Shown in pieces: positions 13,128-25,252 of a DNA stretch of 25,252 nucleotides (positions within the stretch are counted from its first letter, which is position 1; every line of letters starts with the position of its first letter). The notes under the pieces were generated by a model. That model saw nothing but the letters and a program-made list of their open reading frames with translations, was not told the origin of the DNA and ran no database searches. Made by a program: the position numbers and the translations under genes. The stretch comes from Thermococcus sp. (GTDB taxonomy: Archaea > Methanobacteriota_B > Thermococci > Thermococcales > Thermococcaceae). The stretch is taken from positions 444 through 25,695 of the forward strand of contig JALVWX010000229.1 of the NCBI GenBank assembly GCA_027023165.1. The letters run 5' to 3'.

Positions 13128-13145
13128 ACCCAGGTGAGGACTAAA

Positions 13146-13355
13146 ATGAAAAAGCTCAAAATCTACATTCCCGACATCAAGTTCCCCTCGCAGGACCGGG
13201 GGGTTTCACCCCCCACGTCCTTGCCAACCCCCTCCCCCCGAGAGTGGGGCTTCGCCCCACATAAACCGGGAAACTACGTTTCCCAGACCCTTCCTCCTCT
13301 TTTAAACACCGGAGGGGGCTACGCCCCCTACAACCCCCTTTCTGAGGTGAGTTAA
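13146..13355 (+). pseudogene. Truncated duplicate of the radical SAM gene start
   Basis: The first 15 codons give MKKLKIYIPDIKFPS, against MRKLKIYIPGIKFPS in the intact gene at 13356. Most of the DNA differences are synonymous, so the copy diverged while it was still under selection and was later truncated. A ribosome site AGGTGAG remains ahead of it. After codon 15 the homology ends, and low-complexity sequence full of hairpins follows up to the TAA at 13353-13355, which touches the intact gene's ATG. The remaining frame (proline- and glycine-rich) does not look like a functional protein. Confidence 0.7.
13198..13329. repeat. Array of four 17-base hairpins, each 7-3-7
   Basis: Four perfect inverted repeats follow one another, each with a 7-base stem and a 3-base loop: 13198-13214 (GGGGGGT, loop TTC), 13244-13260 (GTGGGGC, loop TTC), 13268-13284 (GGGAAAC, loop TAC) and 13313-13329 (AGGGGGC, loop TAC). 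Pyrimidine-rich tracts separate them. The geometry is the same while the stem sequences differ, which is unlike a single copied repeat. The role is unknown. Confidence 0.85.
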
Positions 13356-14183
13356 ATGAGAAAGCTCAAAATATACATCCCAGGCATAAAATTTCCATCA
13401 ATCTCGCTCACGGGCAATGCCTGCGCTTTAAACTGCGCCCACTGCGGGAGGCACTACCTGGAGGGTATGCGAAAGCCCGAGCGGGGAGAGCTTTTGAACT
13501 ACTGCCTCAACCTCGATAGGAAGGGCTACCTCGGCTGTCTGCTGAGCGGCGGGATGGACGGAAGGCTGAAGGTCCCCCTCGACTTCTACGCGGACGAGAT
13601 AAAGGAGATAAAGCGGAGAACGAACCTGAAGCTAAACGCCCACGTGGGATTCATTGATGAGACAGATTTGGAATGGCTTCGATGGGTTGACGTCGTTTCC
13701 CTCGACTTCGTTGGCGATAACGAAGTGATAAAGCGCGTTTACAGAATAGACAAGACCACGGAGGATTACCTGAGAGTCCTCGACCTCTTGACAGAAGCCG
13801 GCGTAAGAGTTGCACCGCACATAACCATCGGTCTAGACTTCGGGAGAATTCACTGGGAGTACAGTGCGATAGACCTGCTGATGAACTACCCGATAGACGT
13901 CATCGTCCTGGACGTCCTAATACCAACGAAAGGAACCGAGATGGAAAACGTTCCCAAGCCGGGCGTTGAGGAGAGCCTCGACGTGGTGAGGTACGCTCGC
14001 GAGCGCTTTGATGGGGAGATAAGCATAGGCTGCATGCGCCCGCTCGGGAGATGGAGACTCGATTTCGACAGGGGGGCGGTTTTGGCCGGCGTTGACAGGC
14101 TGACGAACCCGCCGAGGAAAATAATCGAGTGGGCAAAAACTGTAAGGGAAGTGGAGGTAATCTACGAGTGCTGCGTCATGTAG
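13356..14183 (+). CDS. Radical SAM protein, biotin synthase-like (possible LipS-type lipoate synthase subunit)
   Basis: This 275-residue protein has the radical SAM cluster motif CALNCAHC (CX3CX2C) near residue 24, so it should bind a [4Fe-4S] cluster and cleave S-adenosylmethionine. Further cysteines at LGCLLSGG, IGCMRPLG and the C-terminal YECCVM may hold a second cluster. Such proteins were long annotated as biotin synthase-related. In T. kodakarensis a pair of them was shown to form an unusual lipoate synthase (LipS1/LipS2), and I recall one member lying close to enolase as here. That assignment rests on memory of synteny and motif layout. GAGGTGA precedes the ATG by 5 bases. A diverged, truncated copy of the gene start lies directly upstream. 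Confidence 0.8.
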   Translation: MRKLKIYIPGIKFPSISLTGNACALNCAHCGRHYLEGMRKPERGELLNYCLNLDRKGYLGCLLSGGMDGRLKVPLDFYADEIKEIKRRTNLKLNAHVGFIDETDLEWLRWVDVVSLDFVGDNEVIKRVYRIDKTTEDYLRVLDLLTEAGVRVAPHITIGLDFGRIHWEYSAIDLLMNYPIDVIVLDVLIPTKGTEMENVPKPGVEESLDVVRYARERFDGEISIGCMRPLGRWRLDFDRGAVLAGVDRLTNPPRKIIEWAKTVREVEVIYECCVM

Positions 14184-18376: not shown

Positions 18377-19243
18377 ATGAAGAAGTATGCGCTACCCCTT
18401 GTGGCGCTCATTTTAATCGGCTTCGCCGCTGGATGCGTAGGACAGGAAGGCAAAGGTGGAACCACCACGGTTCAGCCAAGCGGCCCTCTGGTGAACGTAA
18501 CAACGGAAAGCCAGACCCAAAGCCAGACGACAACCTCCCAGCCCCCAGCGACGGGGAACGAGAAGACGATCGACCTCAAAGAACTCCAGAAGGCCGTCAA
18601 CGGGATAGGCCAGTTCACCTACGTGGGCAACACGACCGTAAACATGACGGTCACGCTGACGAGCAACAAAACCTCGCAGAGCGAGAACCTGACCCTCATC
18701 ATCGGGGAGAAGGGCTACATCGACCTCCAGGCAAGGAGAGCATGGATAAACTCCACGACGCAGACGCCGCCGGCGGGGCCGTCAACGACGATGTCGAGGA
18801 TAGTCATAGGAAACACGACCTACATGCACCTCGTCAGCGGCTGGATAAAGCTCAACGACTCGCGGGTAAGCGAGATGGTGTGGGGGTTCAACATCGTCGC
18901 CCTCGCCAGAACCTACCTGACGAAGAAACCCGATTCAATAAAGACGGGGCAGGTGACCGTGCTGGTCTACAGGGTTCCGAACTACCTCATAACGCCGCTG
19001 GCGAAGAACTACTTCGCGACCTCCCCGAACTCAAGCGTTGAAGTCAGGGACGGCACACTGGAGCTTTACTTCCGCGGGAACAGGTTTATAGGAGGAAGGC
19101 TGAGCTTCCACGTGAAGGCAGAGGCCGAGATAAACGACAACCTCCTGGGGAGGATGCATATCGAGCAGAAAGGCTCGTGGGTCGAGACGGTGAGGATAAC
19201 CTCAATAAACGTGAAGGAAGAGGTAAAGGCCCCAACTACCTGA
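18377..19243 (+). CDS. Secreted lipoprotein with S/T/Q-rich linker
   Basis: The 288-residue protein begins MKKYALPLVALILIGFAAGC: a charged start, a hydrophobic core and a lipobox-like end in which C20 would be lipidated. A flexible linker of about 40 residues rich in S, T and Q follows. The rest is beta-strand-rich, with N-X-S/T sequons (NTTVNMTVTL, NKTS, NLTL, NSTT, NTTY) suggesting glycosylation outside the cell. The beta-rich body might be a LolA/LppX-like fold, but I cannot confirm this. GGTGAG precedes the ATG. The gene's last 8 bases overlap the convergent E1-like gene. The specific role is unknown. Confidence 0.8.
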   Translation: MKKYALPLVALILIGFAAGCVGQEGKGGTTTVQPSGPLVNVTTESQTQSQTTTSQPPATGNEKTIDLKELQKAVNGIGQFTYVGNTTVNMTVTLTSNKTSQSENLTLIIGEKGYIDLQARRAWINSTTQTPPAGPSTTMSRIVIGNTTYMHLVSGWIKLNDSRVSEMVWGFNIVALARTYLTKKPDSIKTGQVTVLVYRVPNYLITPLAKNYFATSPNSSVEVRDGTLELYFRGNRFIGGRLSFHVKAEAEINDNLLGRMHIEQKGSWVETVRITSINVKEEVKAPTT

Positions 19244-19934
19244 GTTCAACGACGTCGAAGGTGTTGTAGGCCAAGTCGATTATCAAAAGCCTGTTGGTCA
19301 GAGGCTCACCGATGCCCGTGAGGAGCTTGAGGACCTCCATGGCCTGGATGGAGCCTACAACCCCTGCGGCCGCCCCGATTATGGGGAACTTCCCGCTTTT
19401 TTCCCTCACACTTCCGAAGACCTCGCGGAGGGACTTCGTGAGGCCCGGAACTATCGTCGTCACCTGGCCGAAGGTCCCCTCGACCGCACCGTGAACGAGC
19501 GGGATTCTCTTCCTGTGGGCGTAGTCGTCGAGCAGGAAGCGCGTGGTGAAGTTGTCGAGGCAGTCAACGATTACGTCGACGCCATCAAGGACATCATCGA
19601 TGTTCTCGGCGGTGAGCCGTCCAACGAAGGTCTCGATTTTTATATCGGAGTTGAAGCGCTCGAGCTTCCACTTCGCCGATAGGGGCTTGGGGTTCCTCCC
19701 AACGTCCTCCTCCCAGTGGAGTATCTGCCTGTTGAGGTTGCTCAGCTCCGGTTCCTGCTCGTCTATCAGGAGGAGCGTGCCGATTCCGGCCGCGGCCAGG
19801 TAGTACGCCACCGGGCTTCCCAGGCCGCCGACTCCAACTACGGCCACCTTCGAGTTCTTCAGCTTCTCCTGCCCCTCCTTTCCGAAGATCAGTATCTGCC
19901 TGTCGTAGCGCTCAAGCTCCCTCTCGCTCAGCAT
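19236..19934 (-). CDS. E1-like adenylating enzyme (HesA/MoeB/ThiF family), cysteine-poor
   Basis: The enzyme should adenylate the C-terminal glycine of a small ubiquitin-fold protein such as the adjacent MoaD-like protein. The 232-residue sequence has ERYDRQILIFGKEGQEKL, the ATP-binding GVGGLGSPVAYYLAAAGIG, the arginine motif NLNRQ, KPLSAKWKLERFNSDI and DCLDNFTTRFLLDD. Only one cysteine, in VDCLDN, is present. The two CXXC zinc motifs and the usual catalytic cysteine are absent, so it may only adenylate, with sulfur added by another protein. The ATG at 19934 is chosen because GGTGGTTGAG precedes it; the in-frame GTG at 19943 lies inside the previous gene's end. It lies immediately after the MoaD-like gene. 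Confidence 0.9.
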   Translation of the reverse strand: MLSERELERYDRQILIFGKEGQEKLKNSKVAVVGVGGLGSPVAYYLAAAGIGTLLLIDEQEPELSNLNRQILHWEEDVGRNPKPLSAKWKLERFNSDIKIETFVGRLTAENIDDVLDGVDVIVDCLDNFTTRFLLDDYAHRKRIPLVHGAVEGTFGQVTTIVPGLTKSLREVFGSVREKSGKFPIIGAAAGVVGSIQAMEVLKLLTGIGEPLTNRLLIIDLAYNTFDVVELR

Positions 19935-19935
19935 C

Positions 19936-20202
19936 TCAACCACCGCTCACAGGCGGGAATATCGCAACGGTATCCCCATCACGGAGAACCTCGTCGAAGC
20001 GGACGTAGCGGCCGTTTCTGGAGACGTTGACGTCGGCGAGGTCATCATCCTCCGCGAAGACCTCGCCCTCCAGAACCGGATGCTTCTCCTTCAGGATCTC
20101 GATAAGCTCTCCTACTGTTATCCCATCTGGGATCTCAAGCTCCTCCTCGCTTCTGCCAACGAGGGAGCGGTACCTGGCGAAATAGCGAACCGTAACCTTC
20201 AT
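19936..20202 (-). CDS. moaD: MoaD/SAMP-like ubiquitin-fold sulfur carrier
   Basis: This 88-residue beta-grasp protein begins MKVTVRYFARYRSLVGRSEE and ends TVAIFPPVSGG, the diglycine end needed for adenylation by an E1-like enzyme and thiocarboxylation. It probably works as the small subunit of molybdopterin (tungstopterin) synthase with MoaE. In archaea such proteins can also act as SAMP protein modifiers, so a dual role is possible. The ATG at 20202 is preceded by GGTGGTG, and the minus-strand TATA element CTTTTTAACTT at about 20231-20241 is correctly spaced. The stop lies just before the E1-like gene, and the two are coupled. Confidence 0.92.
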   Translation of the reverse strand: MKVTVRYFARYRSLVGRSEEELEIPDGITVGELIEILKEKHPVLEGEVFAEDDDLADVNVSRNGRYVRFDEVLRDGDTVAIFPPVSGG

Positions 20203-20333
20203 CCACACCACCTGAAGGAGGTTGGAGGGGAAGTTAAAAAGGGTTGCTGGACGTTTTTGATATCATGGCCCACATCGTACCGGGGGTTAGTAAGCCTGCC
20301 CGGTTTGATTTATTCCCCCGCTTTTTAATGCTT

Positions 20334-20609
20334 TTATCCACCACTTTTTCGTTTTCTCAACCTCTCCTCCAGCTCTTCGGGAGTCAGGTACTCAACTTTG
20401 CCAGAATCCCCGATAAGATAGGGCTCTATGAGGGTTCTCTCGGGTTTTGTAAAAAATACGGCAAGTCCCAAAATGATCAATGGAACAACAAAAAATAAGC
20501 CAGCCAGCATGCTCACTTTTATGGAGCCCGTAATATACCATGCCCCTAAGAAGTATAGAACAAAAATGAGAGGGGTAAGGTAAAGGAACAATTTCTTGTA
20601 AGGATCCAT
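20334..20609 (-). CDS. Small membrane protein with EPYLIGDS-type tail, copy 3
   Basis: The 91-residue protein has two or three hydrophobic segments (about residues 8-27 and 30-52), followed by a tail containing EPYLIGDSGKVEYLTPEELE and a basic end RKRKSGG. The tail matches the proteins at 2766-2993 and 21421-21696, while the membrane part differs from both. The ATG at 20609 overlaps the stop of the preceding gene as TGATG and is preferred over the in-frame TTG at 20612; GGGGGGAT precedes it. As the last gene of the minus-strand array it is paired with the 259-residue beta-rich protein. Function is unknown; a partner or immunity role is a hypothesis. Confidence 0.75.
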   Translation of the reverse strand: MDPYKKLFLYLTPLIFVLYFLGAWYITGSIKVSMLAGLFFVVPLIILGLAVFFTKPERTLIEPYLIGDSGKVEYLTPEELEERLRKRKSGG

Positions 20610-21388
20610 CAATTATCCCCCCATATCCAATCCCATCCTTTAGATACTAAATCACCTATAAAAGCCCCTCCTATAAAGCCTGCACCTTCCGCAGAGGACC
20701 CGAAAATATATACTACGGCCACTTCTGTAAGCGTAGACGTGACAACCGGAGTAACCACATCCACTATCACATATTTCCCATACTGTTTTTCAACGTAGTT
20801 GTCGTATTTAACTGTAATATTGATTCCTGTCGATTTCGCCAGTAGCTCTTTTGTAGATAGGAAGTTTTTAGCCTTATAAATTTTTAAGCTAATTGTATGG
20901 TTCTTGGGAAAGAAGTGAACCCTTGTTGTGTTATAACATACCCCACGCTGGCACACTGTCTCACCGCGTTCCTCAACACTACGAACAAAACTCACTGCTG
21001 TTGCTGATGGCCCATACATAATCTGGGCTAATTTATCATTAAATTTGACTTTGTAGTCTAGAGTCATCTTGGAGTCCGTGGGCAAGTTTTTTACATCAAA
21101 CCATAAAGTTTCAACATCATCAATAACCACTCTAGGGGCTATCTGGATTGTGGGGCCATTGTTAACCACTACCGCAGTACATGAAACAACATCCTTATCA
21201 CCGCCCCACTCGTAAAGACCAACTTCTTGGGGTGTGCAAGAAAACTCTTCAATAATAAGATGACCTCCTGCGTCCATGACATTCACGCTCCCGCTTTCCT
21301 CATCTTCCTCACTCTTCCGCCCGTTGCTAATGGAGTACAGCTTAACCGTGTAAGAATGCTCCCCCGCCTGAGCAATCCAGTGAAGCAT
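20609..21388 (-). CDS. Beta-rich array protein 4, variable hydrophobic C-terminus
   Basis: The 259-residue protein aligns with the 289-residue protein at 21693 over about 200 residues. Shared stretches include AQAGEHSYTVKLY, SCTPQEVGLYEW, IAPRVVIDD, VKFNDKLAQIMYG, SVEERGETVCQRGVCY and YDNYVEKQYGKYVIV. It then ends in an unrelated C-terminus of about 50 residues: a hydrophobic, glycine-rich stretch (AVVYIFGSS, GAGFIGGAFIG) and a tryptophan-rich end, GWDWIWGDN. Paired cysteines suggest disulfides outside the cell, yet no signal peptide is seen. The start reads like the last strand of a larger beta-sandwich domain, so the gene may be a displaced fragment of a larger surface protein. The ATG at 21388 follows GGGGAG; a TTG at 21400 is the alternative. 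Confidence 0.7.
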   Translation of the reverse strand: MLHWIAQAGEHSYTVKLYSISNGRKSEEDEESGSVNVMDAGGHLIIEEFSCTPQEVGLYEWGGDKDVVSCTAVVVNNGPTIQIAPRVVIDDVETLWFDVKNLPTDSKMTLDYKVKFNDKLAQIMYGPSATAVSFVRSVEERGETVCQRGVCYNTTRVHFFPKNHTISLKIYKAKNFLSTKELLAKSTGINITVKYDNYVEKQYGKYVIVDVVTPVVTSTLTEVAVVYIFGSSAEGAGFIGGAFIGDLVSKGWDWIWGDN

Positions 21389-21420
21389 TAAACTCCCCAA
21401 GGATGCCTGAATACAAGATA

Positions 21421-21696
21421 TTACTGTCCACGTTTTCTCGTTTTGAGCCGTTCTTCTATATCCTTTGGTGTCAGATATTCAATCTCAGTAGAGTTTCCAA
21501 TAATGTACGGCTCTTTTGGAAACTTTTTACAGTTTTCAAAATGTTTGACATCACACAAAAACCATACTAAAAGCAATGGGAATGAGGGTAAAAGAGCTAA
21601 AGCTAAACTCCATACAATATCTTCAGTTATGAAAAAAACAGGAAGAAATACAAGAATATAAACAAAAGTGAATCTCCTGAGATGTTTGCTCATCAT
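21421..21696 (-). CDS. Small membrane protein with EPYIIGNS-type tail, copy 2
   Basis: The 91-residue protein has two hydrophobic segments (about residues 9-23 and 28-47), then a tail containing EPYIIGNSTEIEYLTPKDIE and ending in basic residues RKRGQ. Its start codon overlaps the stop of the 289-residue gene (ATGA), with GGGGGAGAT in front, so translation is coupled. The conserved tail and differing membrane part recur in two other proteins of this window. The tail is probably cytoplasmic, given its charge. Function is unknown; coupling suggests it acts with or against the protein encoded just upstream. Confidence 0.75.
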   Translation of the reverse strand: MMSKHLRRFTFVYILVFLPVFFITEDIVWSLALALLPSFPLLLVWFLCDVKHFENCKKFPKEPYIIGNSTEIEYLTPKDIEERLKTRKRGQ

Positions 21697-22562
21697 ATAT
21701 CTCCCCCATAACTATCGTCATCAAGGATATACGGCTCAAATATCCCCATTAGCCCTCCAATAGATCCGCTTAACACAACTTGTCCTGATTCTGATGCCAT
21801 ATTTGCAAGGAGTACAGGAGTAAAACATGATATCCCATACATTGTGGCTAGTGTGAACGTTGGCTCCACAATGACATACTCTGCCCATTTCTTTTCCACA
21901 TATCCGTCATATTTAACTGTTACTGTAATATCTTCACTTTGCGTCAGTATTTCTGTGGTCGGCATGTAATCTATCGCTTTGTAAATTCTAAGACCTATTG
22001 TGTGATCTTCAGGTAAATAGCGAGTTAGTATTGGAGTATAACATACACCCCTCCGACACGTAGTATTCCCCCGCTCCTCCACAGTTTTCACAAAACTCAT
22101 TGCAGTAGCTGCTGGCCCATAAATAAGCTGAGCTAACCCATCACTAAACTTAACCTCATACTTTATGACTAGGCTGGAATTTCCCGGTAGAACCCTTGTG
22201 TTAAGCCAGAAAGCCTCAATATCATCAACCACAACTCTTGGAGCTATCCTAACTTCTGAACCATTATTTTGAACAACGACAGTACATAAGACCTTATCCC
22301 GATCAAACCGCCACTCATACAACCCCACTTCTCTGGGTGTACATCCAAAATTCTCAATGGTAATGCCCTCAGATAAATTATTTGAACCTACGGTATTGCC
22401 TGACCCCAACACTTTCAAACTACCTCCATCTAAATCTTCAAGCTCTTCATTCCTGTTCTCATCAAGCGTGTAAACCTTGACCGCATATGAATGCTCCCCC
22501 ACCTGAGCAAGCCGGCGAAGAGTGAAAGATTTCACATGGCCTTCTTCAACGCTTCCACTCAC
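21693..22562 (-). CDS. Beta-rich array protein 3, variable hydrophobic C-terminus
   Basis: The 289-residue protein shares its first 230 or so residues with the 259-residue protein at 20609: AQVGEHSYAVKVY, GCTPREVGLYEW, LCTVVVQNNG, IAPRVVVDDIE, VKFSDGLAQLIYG, SVV-type linkers, and TTCRRGVCY. It then diverges into about 57 unrelated residues with a hydrophobic part (LATMYGISCFTPVLLA), a glycine-rich part (VLSGSIGGLMGIF) and an acidic end (LDDDSYGGDI). The GTG at 22562 is chosen over the GTG at 22574 because it lies exactly 4 bases after the preceding stop, the same spacing as two other junctions in the array. No signal peptide is visible. Function is unknown. Confidence 0.7.
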   Translation of the reverse strand: MSGSVEEGHVKSFTLRRLAQVGEHSYAVKVYTLDENRNEELEDLDGGSLKVLGSGNTVGSNNLSEGITIENFGCTPREVGLYEWRFDRDKVLCTVVVQNNGSEVRIAPRVVVDDIEAFWLNTRVLPGNSSLVIKYEVKFSDGLAQLIYGPAATAMSFVKTVEERGNTTCRRGVCYTPILTRYLPEDHTIGLRIYKAIDYMPTTEILTQSEDITVTVKYDGYVEKKWAEYVIVEPTFTLATMYGISCFTPVLLANMASESGQVVLSGSIGGLMGIFEPYILDDDSYGGDI

Positions 22563-22566
22563 CGAA

Positions 22567-23139
22567 TCACCCACCGATTACGTTGTTATTGTCGTTAGAT
22601 TTTCCTGAAATTCTAGACCCAACTACTGTTAGCAGGTACCACCACCAGAGCACTACTGCATAAGGGAGTACATATAAAGATTGGGTCATAACTGCAACAA
22701 TCGTAATTTGAAGTCCCATGGCCAACATAAAGACTCTATTCCAGTTGTTCGGGGAAAAACTCCGGGAAATCCTCTTATAGGGCAAAACAGGGATCAACAA
22801 AATGTAGAGAAGCCCTGTGTATTGAGCGAGTTTATTATTACTCATTACAAAAAACACTCCTACCGGGGGGAGATATGAAAGGAAAAGGGCACTTGCTAAG
22901 TTCAGAGTCTTACCCGGAAATAATCTGTGCCAAAGAGCAAATCCTGATGCTATCATCCATAGCATAATGGACATATACGCCACTCGGATATCCATTTGAG
23001 TTCCATACTTGAGAGAAGTTATAAAGGATATCCAAGCTATTGCACCAAAGCCAATTCCCCTAATGCCCTCCGTAATAGCACCAATTCCTACTACAGTCAA
23101 TGCAAATAAAAGGAGGAGAAAATCGACAAGTTCCAACAT
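22567..23139 (-). CDS. Six-helix membrane protein with DNNNVIGG tail
   Basis: This 190-residue protein has about five or six membrane segments. They begin VDFLLLLFALTVVGIGAI and end VLPYAVVLWWWYLLTVVG. After the last one comes a short polar tail, SGKSNDNNNVIGG. The last eight residues are identical to the end of the unrelated 219-residue protein at 24094, with different codons at six of eight positions. It is not visibly related to the other membrane proteins of the array. The ATG lies 4 bases after the preceding stop with GGGGGA in front. Function is unknown; it follows the 151-residue beta-rich gene and may be its partner. Confidence 0.7.
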   Translation of the reverse strand: MLELVDFLLLLFALTVVGIGAITEGIRGIGFGAIAWISFITSLKYGTQMDIRVAYMSIMLWMIASGFALWHRLFPGKTLNLASALFLSYLPPVGVFFVMSNNKLAQYTGLLYILLIPVLPYKRISRSFSPNNWNRVFMLAMGLQITIVAVMTQSLYVLPYAVVLWWWYLLTVVGSRISGKSNDNNNVIGG

Positions 23140-23143
23140 TCTT

Positions 23144-23599
23144 TCATCCCCCCACTACTGCATTGTTATCGTTCTCTTGTGGGAAATGATTATTGCCCCA
23201 AATTATCTCCTCCGATATCCACTGAATGTCATTTTCATGTTTTATGCCCTCAATACCAATAGTTATTAAAACACCTTCAGGGTTCAATGAGATAATGGCT
23301 TTAATAGTGTTTCCGACTTCATAAAGTGTCAATCCATAGTCTATCGCTTTGTCTGTTCCGCTTCTCGTGTCTTTGTAAACTACAGTAATAGCATCTGAAA
23401 CAGGATATCCAAGAGCATCAAACTTGACTCCAATCAAGTACGAGTGTCCTGCAAACTTGTCGATATAAGTTCTGTAGATAGGTTTCCCAAAGTAATAATT
23501 CGCCAGCTCGTCATTCACCGTAATCGTCACCGTCAAGTCCTCCTGCATAATTGGAAGAAACTTGCACCCGGTCTTATAATCTACCATCCCCTTGCTCAC
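23144..23599 (-). CDS. Beta-rich array protein 2, short, possibly a displaced fragment
   Basis: The 151-residue protein shares MQEDLTVTITVNDELANYYF with the 219-residue protein, encoded by a perfect 59-base DNA repeat. It continues as a related beta domain (AGHSYLIGVKFDALG) and then diverges into its own C-terminus, YEVGNTIKAIISLNPEGVLI, an IIWGN stretch and the end NDNNAVVGG. The first 17 or so residues before the shared part have no counterpart and overlap the end of the preceding membrane gene. No convincing ribosome site marks a start, so GTG 23599, ATG 23587 or the ATG in the repeat are all possible. It may be a silent or displaced cassette rather than a complete gene. Confidence 0.55.
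   Translation of the reverse strand: MSKGMVDYKTGCKFLPIMQEDLTVTITVNDELANYYFGKPIYRTYIDKFAGHSYLIGVKFDALGYPVSDAITVVYKDTRSGTDKAIDYGLTLYEVGNTIKAIISLNPEGVLITIGIEGIKHENDIQWISEEIIWGNNHFPQENDNNAVVGG
23490..23548 (-). repeat. 59-base perfect direct repeat, copy A
   Basis: This segment is identical to 24464-24522 and lies in the same reading frame and orientation in both genes, 974 bases apart. Homology at the DNA level drops abruptly at both edges. Confidence 0.9.
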
Positions 23600-24089
23600 T
23601 CTCAGATTTTTTCGTTGTTTCTTCCGCCCTTAATAGGCAATATAACACGAAAATGAAATACGTCAGAGGAAGTAGGGGGTATTTGTAATATAGTATCCAT
23701 GCGAGGCAAATTAACACTATATAATACACAATGATTAATCTTGCAACGTTATTTGGATGTTGTCTTATCAAAAAATATATCACAATTTCAATTGCTATAA
23801 ACATTGTTATTGTGTAAATTACAAAGGACTTTAACCCGGAACTCAGGGCAAACACTTTAATCACAATTAGAAACATGAAGGGATAAAGGAGGAGGTCATT
23901 AAGATTATACCATGTAGGCGTCTTTTTGCTTGGGGTCGCTAAGAACATTCCCACAGTCCATAAGAATACGCCAATGAAAGTGTATCCCCACCATTCAGAG
24001 TCGTTGACTTTGACTTGATATGCTGAATACAAGATTACCAAAATATTAATAAAGAAGGAGAACTTAAAGACCTGAGAAGGATTCCTCAT
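23574..24089 (-). CDS. Six-helix membrane protein of the array
   Basis: This 171-residue protein is almost entirely membrane segments, from FKFSFFINILVILYSAYQV to YFIFVLYCLL, with a short charged C-terminal tail (EETTKKSESEQGDGRL). It shows no clear similarity to the other membrane proteins here and no known motif. Its ATG lies 4 bases after the stop of the 219-residue gene, whose terminal GGGGGA serves as ribosome site, so it is coupled to that gene. Its A/T-rich codon use is unlike the metabolic genes. Function is unknown; a partner role for the 219-residue protein is inferred from order only. Confidence 0.65.
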   Translation of the reverse strand: MRNPSQVFKFSFFINILVILYSAYQVKVNDSEWWGYTFIGVFLWTVGMFLATPSKKTPTWYNLNDLLLYPFMFLIVIKVFALSSGLKSFVIYTITMFIAIEIVIYFLIRQHPNNVARLIIVYYIVLICLAWILYYKYPLLPLTYFIFVLYCLLRAEETTKKSESEQGDGRL

Positions 24090-24093
24090 GCTA

Positions 24094-24753
24094 TCATCCC
24101 CCTATCACGTTGTTGTTATCTCCATCTGAGGGTGTCGGTGCTCTGAGCCAGTTTATAACGTCCCTTGCAGTTAAAATCCAACCGACAATCCCAAGTACTT
24201 TTGATCCTACTACTGCCACTTTTCCTAAAGATCCGCTGACCACGGTCTCCAGTTGTCCCATATGTTCGGCTGCCATCTCGAGCACAGACTGAGCAATACC
24301 CCCTACTTCTACTGCAGTCTCAACTTTCTCACCAAGCGAGGACTTATCAGTTATTTCAATTATATCACTGGTCGCAATGTTGTTGCTGAAGACTGCTCTA
24401 ATAAGATAGGAGTATCCTACAAGCCTATCACTATATGATCCCCACCCAAGTGGCTCCTTCTCGAAGTAATAATTCGCCAGCTCGTCATTCACCGTAATCG
24501 TCACCGTCAAGTCCTCCTGCATGTTTGTTGGTGTTAGTGTTACAGTTTTCCTGCTAACTACTATACTGCTCGGTCCGTTTGGCCAAACTTTCTTACCACC
24601 AAAGTCCACTTCCTCCAGATTTAAGGTTACTGTATCAGCACTCTTCAATCCAAGGTGGACAGTACAGGTAGTTGACCCATCCAAAGGAACCACCACCGGA
24701 TCACAGCTCATGTTGGCAATAACGTTCCCCGTTGGCTTCACCTCCACCGTCAC
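24094..24753 (-). CDS. Beta-rich array protein 1, DNNNVIGG tail
   Basis: The 219-residue protein has a beta-rich region (VTVEVKPTGNVIANMSCDP, TTCTVHLGLK, TVTLTPTNMQEDLTVTI) with two cysteines placed as in the two longer array proteins, and VNDELANYYF where they have F-D-LAQ-Y. From about residue 140 it becomes helical and hydrophobic (GGIAQSVLEMAAEH, GKVAVVGSKVLGIVGWILTA, DVINWLRAP) and ends GDNNNVIGG. The frame stays open for 23 codons before the GTG at 24753, reading PNGEGEEHWAE, which also looks like genuine protein. So the start is uncertain and the gene may have lost an N-terminal part. It overlaps the end of the preceding membrane gene by 53 bases. Confidence 0.6.
   Translation of the reverse strand: MTVEVKPTGNVIANMSCDPVVVPLDGSTTCTVHLGLKSADTVTLNLEEVDFGGKKVWPNGPSSIVVSRKTVTLTPTNMQEDLTVTITVNDELANYYFEKEPLGWGSYSDRLVGYSYLIRAVFSNNIATSDIIEITDKSSLGEKVETAVEVGGIAQSVLEMAAEHMGQLETVVSGSLGKVAVVGSKVLGIVGWILTARDVINWLRAPTPSDGDNNNVIGG
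24464..24522 (-). repeat. 59-base perfect direct repeat, copy B
   Basis: Identical to 23490-23548, encoding MQEDLTVTI and VNDELANYYF in the 219-residue gene. Flanking DNA differs immediately on both sides. Confidence 0.9.
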
Positions 24754-25207
24754 CTCTGCCCAGTGTTCTTCCCCTTCCCCGTTTGGCTTTAACGGTTGGT
24801 AGATGTTTTCGACAGTTTCTTTCTATCAAACCATAAGTCACCCCCACCAAACCCACCGCCAGAGGGAACAGCGATAAAAAGAACCTCGTAGAACCATCAA
24901 CCAGCGGGAGGTTAGCCAACCCGCTGAAGGCAAAATAGCCCACAAAAAGGGCAAACAGCTGCCGAGGTTTACCCTTGGCACCTGAGAGTTTGGTGTAGCC
25001 GATCATATATCTCACTACATCGTTCCTGCAACTCTGAGAATTTAACCGCCTACCAGCCCAGCAGATTAATAACATGAGCATAAACGCCACTGCAGAACCC
25101 CCTATTGTCCTGATAGCGCTCCATGACCCAAAGTACTCGGCCTGCAAAAATAAGGATAGAAAAACCAGAGAGCCACATAAGAGTTTAATGAGGGGTTTGT
25201 CTTTCAT
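24701..25207 (-). CDS. Four-helix membrane protein with anomalous C-terminal tail
   Basis: The protein has about four membrane segments (KLLCGSLVFLSLFLQAEYF, AVAFMLMLLICWAG, LFALFVGYFAFSGLANLPL, FFLSLFPLAVGLVGVTYGL), then a tail of about 30 residues rich in R and G. That tail is the out-of-frame reading of the DNA encoding the start of the 219-residue protein, so it is probably not native and the original end may have been lost by recombination. The ATG at 25207 is chosen because GGGAGGT lies 8 bases before it; in-frame ATGs at 25225 and 25213 are possible. It is the first gene of the minus-strand array visible here; the array probably continues beyond the right edge. Function is unknown. Confidence 0.6.
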   Translation of the reverse strand: MKDKPLIKLLCGSLVFLSLFLQAEYFGSWSAIRTIGGSAVAFMLMLLICWAGRRLNSQSCRNDVVRYMIGYTKLSGAKGKPRQLFALFVGYFAFSGLANLPLVDGSTRFFLSLFPLAVGLVGVTYGLIERNCRKHLPTVKAKRGRGRTLGRGDGGGEANGERYCQHEL

Positions 25208-25252
25208 TGGCATTACCTCCCTCATGTGTGCTCCAAGATCCAGGGCTTAAAG

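Follow-up and report, generated by a model that had tools for sequence, protein, structure and literature searches.

Four end-pieces alternate with membrane proteins

Here, we analyse an array of genes in a 25,252-nucleotide (nt) stretch of Thermococcus sp. DNA (contig JALVWX010000229.1, positions 444 to 25,695), referred to below, at its full length, as the window. The minus strand of 20334-25225 carries nine genes, the first of which encodes a membrane protein whose end is frame-shifted. The other eight form four units, each composed of a beta-rich end-piece with a variable C-terminal end (CT) and a partner membrane protein that follows it. The end-pieces are 219, 151 (147-151), 289-293 and 259-263 amino acids (aa) long, varying with the start chosen, and the partners, all of them open frames, 171, 190, 91 and 91-92 aa; the upstream membrane protein has 168-174 aa, again depending on its start. 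Genes were called with a custom script, and transmembrane (TM) segments and N-terminal hydrophobicity were read from hydropathy windows rather than from trained predictors. An original prediction, made from these letters alone, had named the genes, and its sizes and order proved right. The features are as follows (Ig, immunoglobulin).

24701..25225, minus strand: upstream membrane protein, 168-174 aa, three hydrophobic segments (hydropathy scan, frame reading)
24094..24753, minus strand: unit 1 end-piece, 219 aa; terminal domain (predicted Ig-like) and variable CT ending in DNNNVIGG
24464..24522, minus strand: 59-nt exact repeat, copy 1
23574..24089, minus strand: unit 1 partner, 171 aa, three hydrophobic segments
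23144..23599, minus strand: unit 2 end-piece, 147-151 aa; part of a unit 1-type terminal domain and a CT ending in DNNAVVGG
23490..23548, minus strand: 59-nt exact repeat, copy 2
22567..23139, minus strand: unit 2 partner, 190 aa, three hydrophobic segments, its own C-terminus being DNNNVIGG
21693..22574, minus strand: unit 3 end-piece, 289-293 aa, second terminal-domain type, CT ending in DDDSYGGDI
21421..21696, minus strand: unit 3 partner, 91 aa, two hydrophobic segments; variable membrane half, constant tail at 21421-21513
20609..21400, minus strand: unit 4 end-piece, 259-263 aa, CT ending in WDWIWGDN
20334..20612, minus strand: unit 4 partner, 91-92 aa, two hydrophobic segments; constant tail at 20334-20426

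The array is a VARTIG module with full-length parents in relatives

Judged by its sequence, the array is a VARTIG module, a known system of which this locus is a new member. VARTIG has been described as a hypervariable module of Thermococcales with a large Ig-like parent protein (PMC8416519, Makarova et al. 2021). The likeness lies in a large Ig-like parent found in relatives, in smaller proteins that align with the C-terminal part of that parent, as units 1-4 do, and in the same kind of membrane proteins, which in the window follow the end-pieces in one common direction (by hydropathy scan only). The published D[ND]NxxxG[GD] C-terminal motif is present in units 1 and 2 and absent from units 3 and 4. 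A slightly wider pattern of the motif was found in 57 proteins of our gene set, 41 of which have a detected core, Ig or N-terminal match.

That gene set comprises 67 loci from 51 related genomes plus the window. Two of 53 matching genomes, G047 and G070, which gave weak matches only, were left out, as were secondary matches (e.g., G020 214262, G043:C4, G061:C81, G048:C11 and G068:C42). A gene was counted as an array gene if a core, Ig or N-terminal match was detected in it or if its end bore the motif; 188 such genes were listed, including 13 core-less ends added by hand and some N-terminal fragments of broken parents.

In the nearest relative, locus L001, a 1091-aa parent with a hydrophobic N-terminus adjoins carS (CDP-archaeol synthase, PF01864), and behind it lie membrane proteins and pieces without a stem that resemble those of the window; the end of this parent includes the terminal domain of units 1 and 2. 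Altogether, 51 array genes of the set reach at least 700 aa. Among the 46 parents away from contig ends, a simple hydropathy scan found a hydrophobic N-terminus in 32 and none in 14, and in 43 the next protein has at least two hydrophobic segments. The longer parent with the same core that had been expected is thus found in relatives, and the stem-less copies, described beforehand as displaced, lie downstream of it there. We also agree that the end-pieces of the window start mid-domain and show no signal peptide, as read by eye against the full-length L001 relative. The window contains no parent gene, and since the contig has only 25695 bp, with at most 443 bases beyond the window, its own parent cannot be read. 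No Pfam family was found at E 0.001 in the L001 parent, the only full-length relative scanned, so Rhs or CdiA-type domains were not recognised in it.

Among the matches listed, VARTIG islands occur in 53 of 94 genomes of the family and 53 of 115 of the class, so that none was seen in the 21 class genomes outside the family; several of the listed matches carry internal stops.

The C-terminal end varies together with the next gene

The CT was taken as the last 65 residues, and the CTs of the 175 complete array genes were compared with one another, as were their neighbouring genes; the other 13 of the 188 are cut by contig ends and do not enter the pair counts, and neighbours that are array genes themselves were excluded from the neighbour counts. 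For cross-locus pairs with similar CTs (E<1e-8), the next gene was homologous in 176 of 241 cases, against 7/118 for the second next, 4/124 for the third next and 8/135 for the previous gene, and against 84/9983 for the next genes of CTs without a match. At a CT identity of at least 60%, the next gene was homologous in 112 of 113 cross-locus pairs, the previous one in 3 of 58 and the second next in 6 of 50. Over 2000 shuffles of the partners, homologous pairs averaged 8.0 with a maximum of 20, in comparison to 183 observed among 289 pairs; the pairs are not independent, since related loci are counted several times, for which the shuffles make no correction. Where partners were homologous, the identity of the CTs and that of the partners rose together (Spearman 0.69, 183 pairs). 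Similar CTs and similar partners co-occur at full-length tips and in stem-less places alike.

The best CT match of every unit in the window has a homologous partner. For unit 1 this holds for 9 of the 12 CT matches listed, the nine best, the three misses lying at a CT identity of at most 42%; compared with the tip of a 1083-aa parent (L097_2), its CT is 92% and its partner 83% identical. A homologous partner accompanies all three CT matches of unit 3 and two of the three of unit 4, whose CT and partner are 86% and 81% identical to those of L033_8. It had been proposed that the C-termini vary with the membrane protein behind them, and the counts bear this out far beyond the shuffles. Neither a fixed gene order with equal conservation along each protein, nor a lack of parents together with a lack of co-variation, was seen.

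One partner family joins a matched membrane half to a constant tail

Units 3 and 4 have 91-aa partners from a family of 25 members with two TM segments (2-TM). Fourteen members stand behind a clustered CT, and among these the membrane half is 61% identical between members behind the same CT family (18 pairs) and 19% between members behind different ones (73 pairs). The tail, EPYIIGxSxxxEYLTxxELExRL, is 72% identical within (14 pairs) and 69% between CT families (64 pairs). In shuffles of the labels over these 14 members, the difference gave p<=0.0002 for the membrane half and p=0.14 for the tail. Since the break falls inside the partner gene, we argue that function, and not proximity alone, underlies the pairing.

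DNA similarity across CT families covers the tail and extends a few bases beyond the stop codon, e.g., 90% over 127 nt between L053_4 and L096_17, and the constant tail could serve as a recombination arm. No clustered CT gene precedes the other 11 of the 25 members, although a short remnant stands before those in L049 and L097. Moreover, genes 16-18 of L099 are three 2-TM-family genes in a row with no end-piece gene before them.

Some stem-less cassettes share exact repeats with the parent of their own locus

Displaced modules of an end and its partner, with a piece of stem, occur in the array loci. Exact DNA of 40 nt or more is common to parent and cassette in 13 of 79 same-locus pairs, spread over 12 of 36 loci; the same degree of sharing was found in 32 of 5043 pairs between genomes and 2 of 29 between different loci of the same genome. 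In L036, 251 identical bases form the very start of a 296-aa cassette; identity falls to 0.32 after them, and the shared stretch stops about where the parent continues into another terminal domain. Such exact repeats within loci are a sign of recombination and do not tell its direction.

Partner-family genes also occur on their own: 187 of 314 have no recognised CT gene before them, and 120 of these 187 stand behind another membrane protein gene.

The out-of-frame end of the upstream membrane gene of the window belongs to the same subject. Its final 29 codons are Ig-domain DNA in the wrong frame, with the junction near 24790; frame 1 reads KAKRGRGRTLGRGDGGGEANGERYCQHEL*, while frame 2 reads KPNGEGEEHWAEVTVEVKPTGNVIANMSCDPV, which resembles the L001 parent. 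We regard this end as a likely recombination scar. The motif DNNNV[IL]GG ends two membrane proteins that our clustering assigns to different families (window 22567-23139, minus strand, and L033:6410-6976, plus strand), and since the same cassette start lies directly after both, this tail may represent the scar of a fusion. P0001, a protein of 297 aa encoded on another contig, is 96% identical to the product of 21693-22574 but has a different N-terminal part, as if the cassette had been joined there at a different junction.

The end-pieces carry two unrelated terminal domains

The four end-pieces fall into two pairs, the 219- and 151-aa proteins having one terminal domain and the 289- and 259-aa proteins another. 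The latter two are 50% identical over residues 15-229 and do not align beyond. The former have MQEDLTVTITVNDELANYYF in common, encoded by the exact 59-nt repeat (24464-24522 and 23490-23548), on whose flanks ungapped DNA identity is 0.31 and 0.27; a weaker gapped similarity of the proteins persists past the repeat and amounts to 37% over 149 columns overall. The switch between these two is therefore sharp in DNA but not total in protein. Between the pairs, no sequence relation of the terminal domains was detected (BLASTP E 0.37; hhalign probability 0.2%), and a core common to all four end-pieces was rejected on these values. Of the earlier claims, a shared core stands within each pair and fails between them, and the sharp change to unrelated C-termini holds for the 289/259 pair, where nothing aligns past residue 229, and for the 219/151 pair at the level of DNA only.

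In AlphaFold2 (AF2) models, the 219-aa end-piece of unit 1 is predicted to have a mainly beta core, with block means above 90 for residues 11-90 and extending to about residue 135 with a dip; for the 259-aa end-piece of unit 4 a beta core is predicted at residues 42-197 (block means mostly 67-91). In their predicted folds, the terminal domains are similar to domains of the Ig-like and adhesin types. Foldseek matches were generic Ig-like folds, CARDB PF1109 (3idu) among them.

One family of C-terminal ends matches glycine-zipper models

CT family c4 occurs in seven loci, at the tip of four parents, and four of its seven members match glycine-zipper models, one of them above the Pfam cut-off (PF13488, 26.9 vs 25 bits). 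A strongly hydrophobic stretch was found in 16 of 57 CT representatives in comparison to 2 of 57 cores. As a mark of all CTs, hydrophobicity or GxxxG content proved weak (16/57, and 56 GxxxG motifs vs 47.3 in shuffles). The Pfam scan covered 31 CT representatives of the 64 CT clusters, six of the 37 listed having been left out as fragments. Family searches with CTs and partners yielded little beyond the zipper models. DUF6861 (PF21724) scored 27.7 bits in one CT, under the cut-off of 28, and was weaker in two more; our literature search found no paper naming DUF6861.

The array occupies a shared site between carS and moaD

On its downstream side the array ends at a moaD-like gene, while the carS side lies outside the view. 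The flanking features are:

20212..20333, no strand given: island end, a stretch ahead of moaD that is alike in empty and filled sites
19936..20202, minus strand: moaD-like (ThiS family) gene, flanking the island and outside it
19236..19943, minus strand: ThiF-family (MoeB-like) gene, flanking the island and outside it

We found carS in 87 of 94 genomes. In 43 of these 87, moaD lies next to it on the same strand at less than 700 bp (mostly about 60 bp), in 15 it lies 1.5-18 kb away, in 6 it is far, and in 23 there was no call on the same contig and strand. By reading the coordinates of matches, carS and moaD, we placed a VARTIG match, among the matches listed, in all but one of the 15 wide gaps (14 of 15). 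The exception is a gap of 4.5 kb in G036 (C1, about 850240-854742), free of VARTIG among the matches listed, which perhaps holds another kind of insert. Ten other moaD-flanked loci, eight of them with carS in view, contain arrays, and the array content differs in each of the 11 moaD-flanked loci; the comparison across strains that had been proposed thus shows gene content differing at the same site, and no fixed order was seen. No att-type repeats were noticed by eye at the island ends of 9 out of 10 empty sites and of 9 filled sites; the window shows one end. One assembly, G064 (L086, L087 and contig C369), has an empty carS-moaD site plus two moaD-flanked arrays and may combine more than one strain.

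The moaD and ThiF-family neighbours suggested that the C-terminal GG might be read as ubiquitin-like. Since moaD directly follows carS in 43 genomes, the neighbourhood represents a shared insertion site, and this reading was set aside. Elsewhere in the window, a short open reading frame contains a second copy of the start of a radical SAM gene (at 13356), located 210 bases upstream of it (78% over 51 nt; 13139-13189 and 13349-13399), which, by the alignment, is a partial duplication.

A membrane-toxin and immunity interpretation, and its rivals

We consider it probable that each pair of CT and membrane protein is a membrane-acting toxin with its immunity protein, carried on stem-less VARTIG end-modules; the toxicity of the CT and the protection by the partner we infer from sequence. 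Each unit of the window consists of a partial, predicted Ig-like domain, a variable CT and a membrane protein of the matching family. On this view, the full-length parent would project from the cell as an Ig-like stalk tipped with a single CT and would drive that CT into the membrane of another archaeon nearby, while the adjacent membrane protein would block the same CT in the membrane of the producer. A new CT would be imported together with its partner by homologous recombination within the last Ig-like domains and, in one partner family, also within the constant 3' tail. The former pair would be left downstream with neither stem nor export signal, in keeping with the sequence pattern described above, and its partner gene may keep protecting the cell against relatives still using the old tip.

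More tentatively, and as a possibility to which we give somewhat less than even weight, VARTIG as a whole can be pictured as a contact-dependent membrane-toxin system in which cells exchange a unit made up of the final Ig-like domain, the toxic tip and the antidote's membrane half. The constant DNA on both sides, i.e., the stalk domain upstream and the antidote tail downstream, would serve as recombination arms; weapon and antidote would be changed together and the old set kept as a library.

Several observations weigh against this interpretation. Next genes were homologous in only 26 of 97 pairs at a CT identity of 30-45% and 45 of 79 at 45-60%; the largest CT cluster (22 members) is followed by four partner families, the third (10) by two and the fourth (9) by three; parents and cassettes with similar CTs have a common partner family in 67 of 117 pairs; and for unit 2 a homologous partner was found in 5 of the 12 CT matches listed, the 4 best included. 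With regard to the toxin itself, strong hydrophobicity is limited to the 16 of 57 representatives mentioned above and the GxxxG count (56) exceeds that of shuffles (47.3) only slightly, at least 23 of the 31 scanned representatives have no Pfam family at E 0.05, and the AF2 confidence (predicted local distance difference test, pLDDT) is below 50 for both CTs tried (units 1 and 4). Furthermore, for 60 of the 187 lone partner genes the preceding open reading frame is non-membrane and possibly an unrecognised end, the constant tail is unnecessary for simple immunity, and no delivery machinery is known for VARTIG.

The main rival is a non-toxic recognition pair, in which the CT and the membrane half of the partner would act as ligand and receptor in the membrane, for self/non-self or mate recognition, and the tail would report binding to a common cell component. 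A CT-matched membrane half joined to a constant tail, as in the 2-TM family, does look like a receptor with one signalling end, and Ig-like and adhesin-type domains would suit such a function. However, the constant tail was seen in only one partner family, and its likeness in DNA past the stop codon means that it may simply be a recombination arm; moreover, stem-less modules and lone partners (187/314) are obviously useful for immunity and less so for recognition, and one CT family matches glycine-zipper models. We therefore hold recognition to be unlikely, though not negligibly so. A quite improbable explanation is antigenic or phage-receptor variation, where the tip would change to escape viruses or binding partners and the membrane proteins would be tip-specific anchors. 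It would account for a variable tip on a stalk, for the hydrophobic N-terminus of 32/46 parents and for islands in 53/94 genomes among the matches listed, but anchors need neither co-diversify so tightly with the tip (112/113) nor be kept alone in tandem, as in the three copies of L099.

The second published hypothesis, complement-like innate immunity (PMC8416519), has the CTs attack foreign cells or viruses while the partners protect self. Complement C4 and cobra venom factor are indeed among the weak Foldseek matches of the unit 1 domain (TM-score by query 0.31-0.35). These matches are generic Ig-like sandwiches, with CARDB, RbmA and pilus chaperones scoring alike, and the L001 parent has no Pfam family and so no thioester domain, which makes this hypothesis very improbable. 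Least credible of all is that the array is decaying debris, the functionless leftovers of recombination: partial domains, the frame-shifted tail and internal stops in several of the matches listed would agree with decay, but partners co-diversify with CTs over large distances and those of the window are open frames.

We thus prefer the toxin/immunity interpretation. In its favour the original prediction of an archaeal polymorphic toxin and immunity locus gains the parent, the stem-less copies, the variable content of the site and the co-variation of CT and partner; the single shared core that it had assumed is lost.

Relation to known systems and significance

Toxin/immunity is not new as an idea, being hypothesis (i) of three untested ones in PMC8416519, next to complement-like immunity (ii) and recognition (iii). 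Relative to the accessible text of that paper, our analysis adds the following. The association of CT and membrane protein, described there as a trend, is counted here with controls, and the matched membrane half and constant tail are added to it. We report exact repeats between parent and cassette in one locus, where no sign of recombination within loci was reported, and zipper-like CTs, where the authors could not identify a toxin. The D[ND]NxxxG[GD] motif, stated to be on no other proteins, is here also on at least two membrane proteins, and a carS-moaD site is shared between genomes (MoaD is not named in the main text). Besides the original description, an editorial and a strain-haplotyping paper use the word VARTIG in the literature searched, and the titles and abstract starts listed there revealed no experimental test of it.

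As far as the accessible text of the papers cited here goes, several bacterial systems resemble the proposed one. The orphan rhs-CT/rhsI modules of Salmonella (PMC3967940) are likewise fragments of a toxin end with an immunity gene, lie downstream of the main gene, lack a start and export signal, and are near-identical to the main gene, which permits recombination; the shared stretch is 251 nt exact in L036 versus 522 bp at 95% in the orphan rhs. In contrast, toxicity has been shown for Rhs while that of VARTIG would be deduced, and no Rhs or other Pfam family is present in the L001 parent. Ionophore toxins of contact-dependent growth inhibition (CDI) and their CdiI proteins (PMC11630599) also combine a variable membrane-acting CT, with a putative glycine zipper, and a highly polymorphic specific partner, yet toxicity and specificity have been shown for CDI and are proposed for VARTIG, and the L001 parent has no CdiA-type Pfam family. 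Glycine-zipper toxins countered by membrane proteins are known from EsxX/ExiCD (PMC12744356), where immunity genes without a toxin occur as well, and from CdzC/D-CdzI (PMC5380434). These differ in using type VII or type I secretion, and only one VARTIG CT family matches the zipper models. Since CDI ionophores, EsxX and Cdz are alike in this respect, membrane partners would fit membrane toxins.

Taken together, the toxin/immunity hypothesis is favoured by the matched unit of CT and partner, by stem-less cassettes that exactly repeat DNA of their own parent and by ends resembling glycine zippers, and the findings name pairs of CT and partner that are open to direct testing. If the hypothesis is true, exchangeable membrane toxins would have a place in archaea comparable to that of CDI and Rhs in bacteria, and a described but unexplained gene module would be an archaeal weapon system with pairs kept in reserve.

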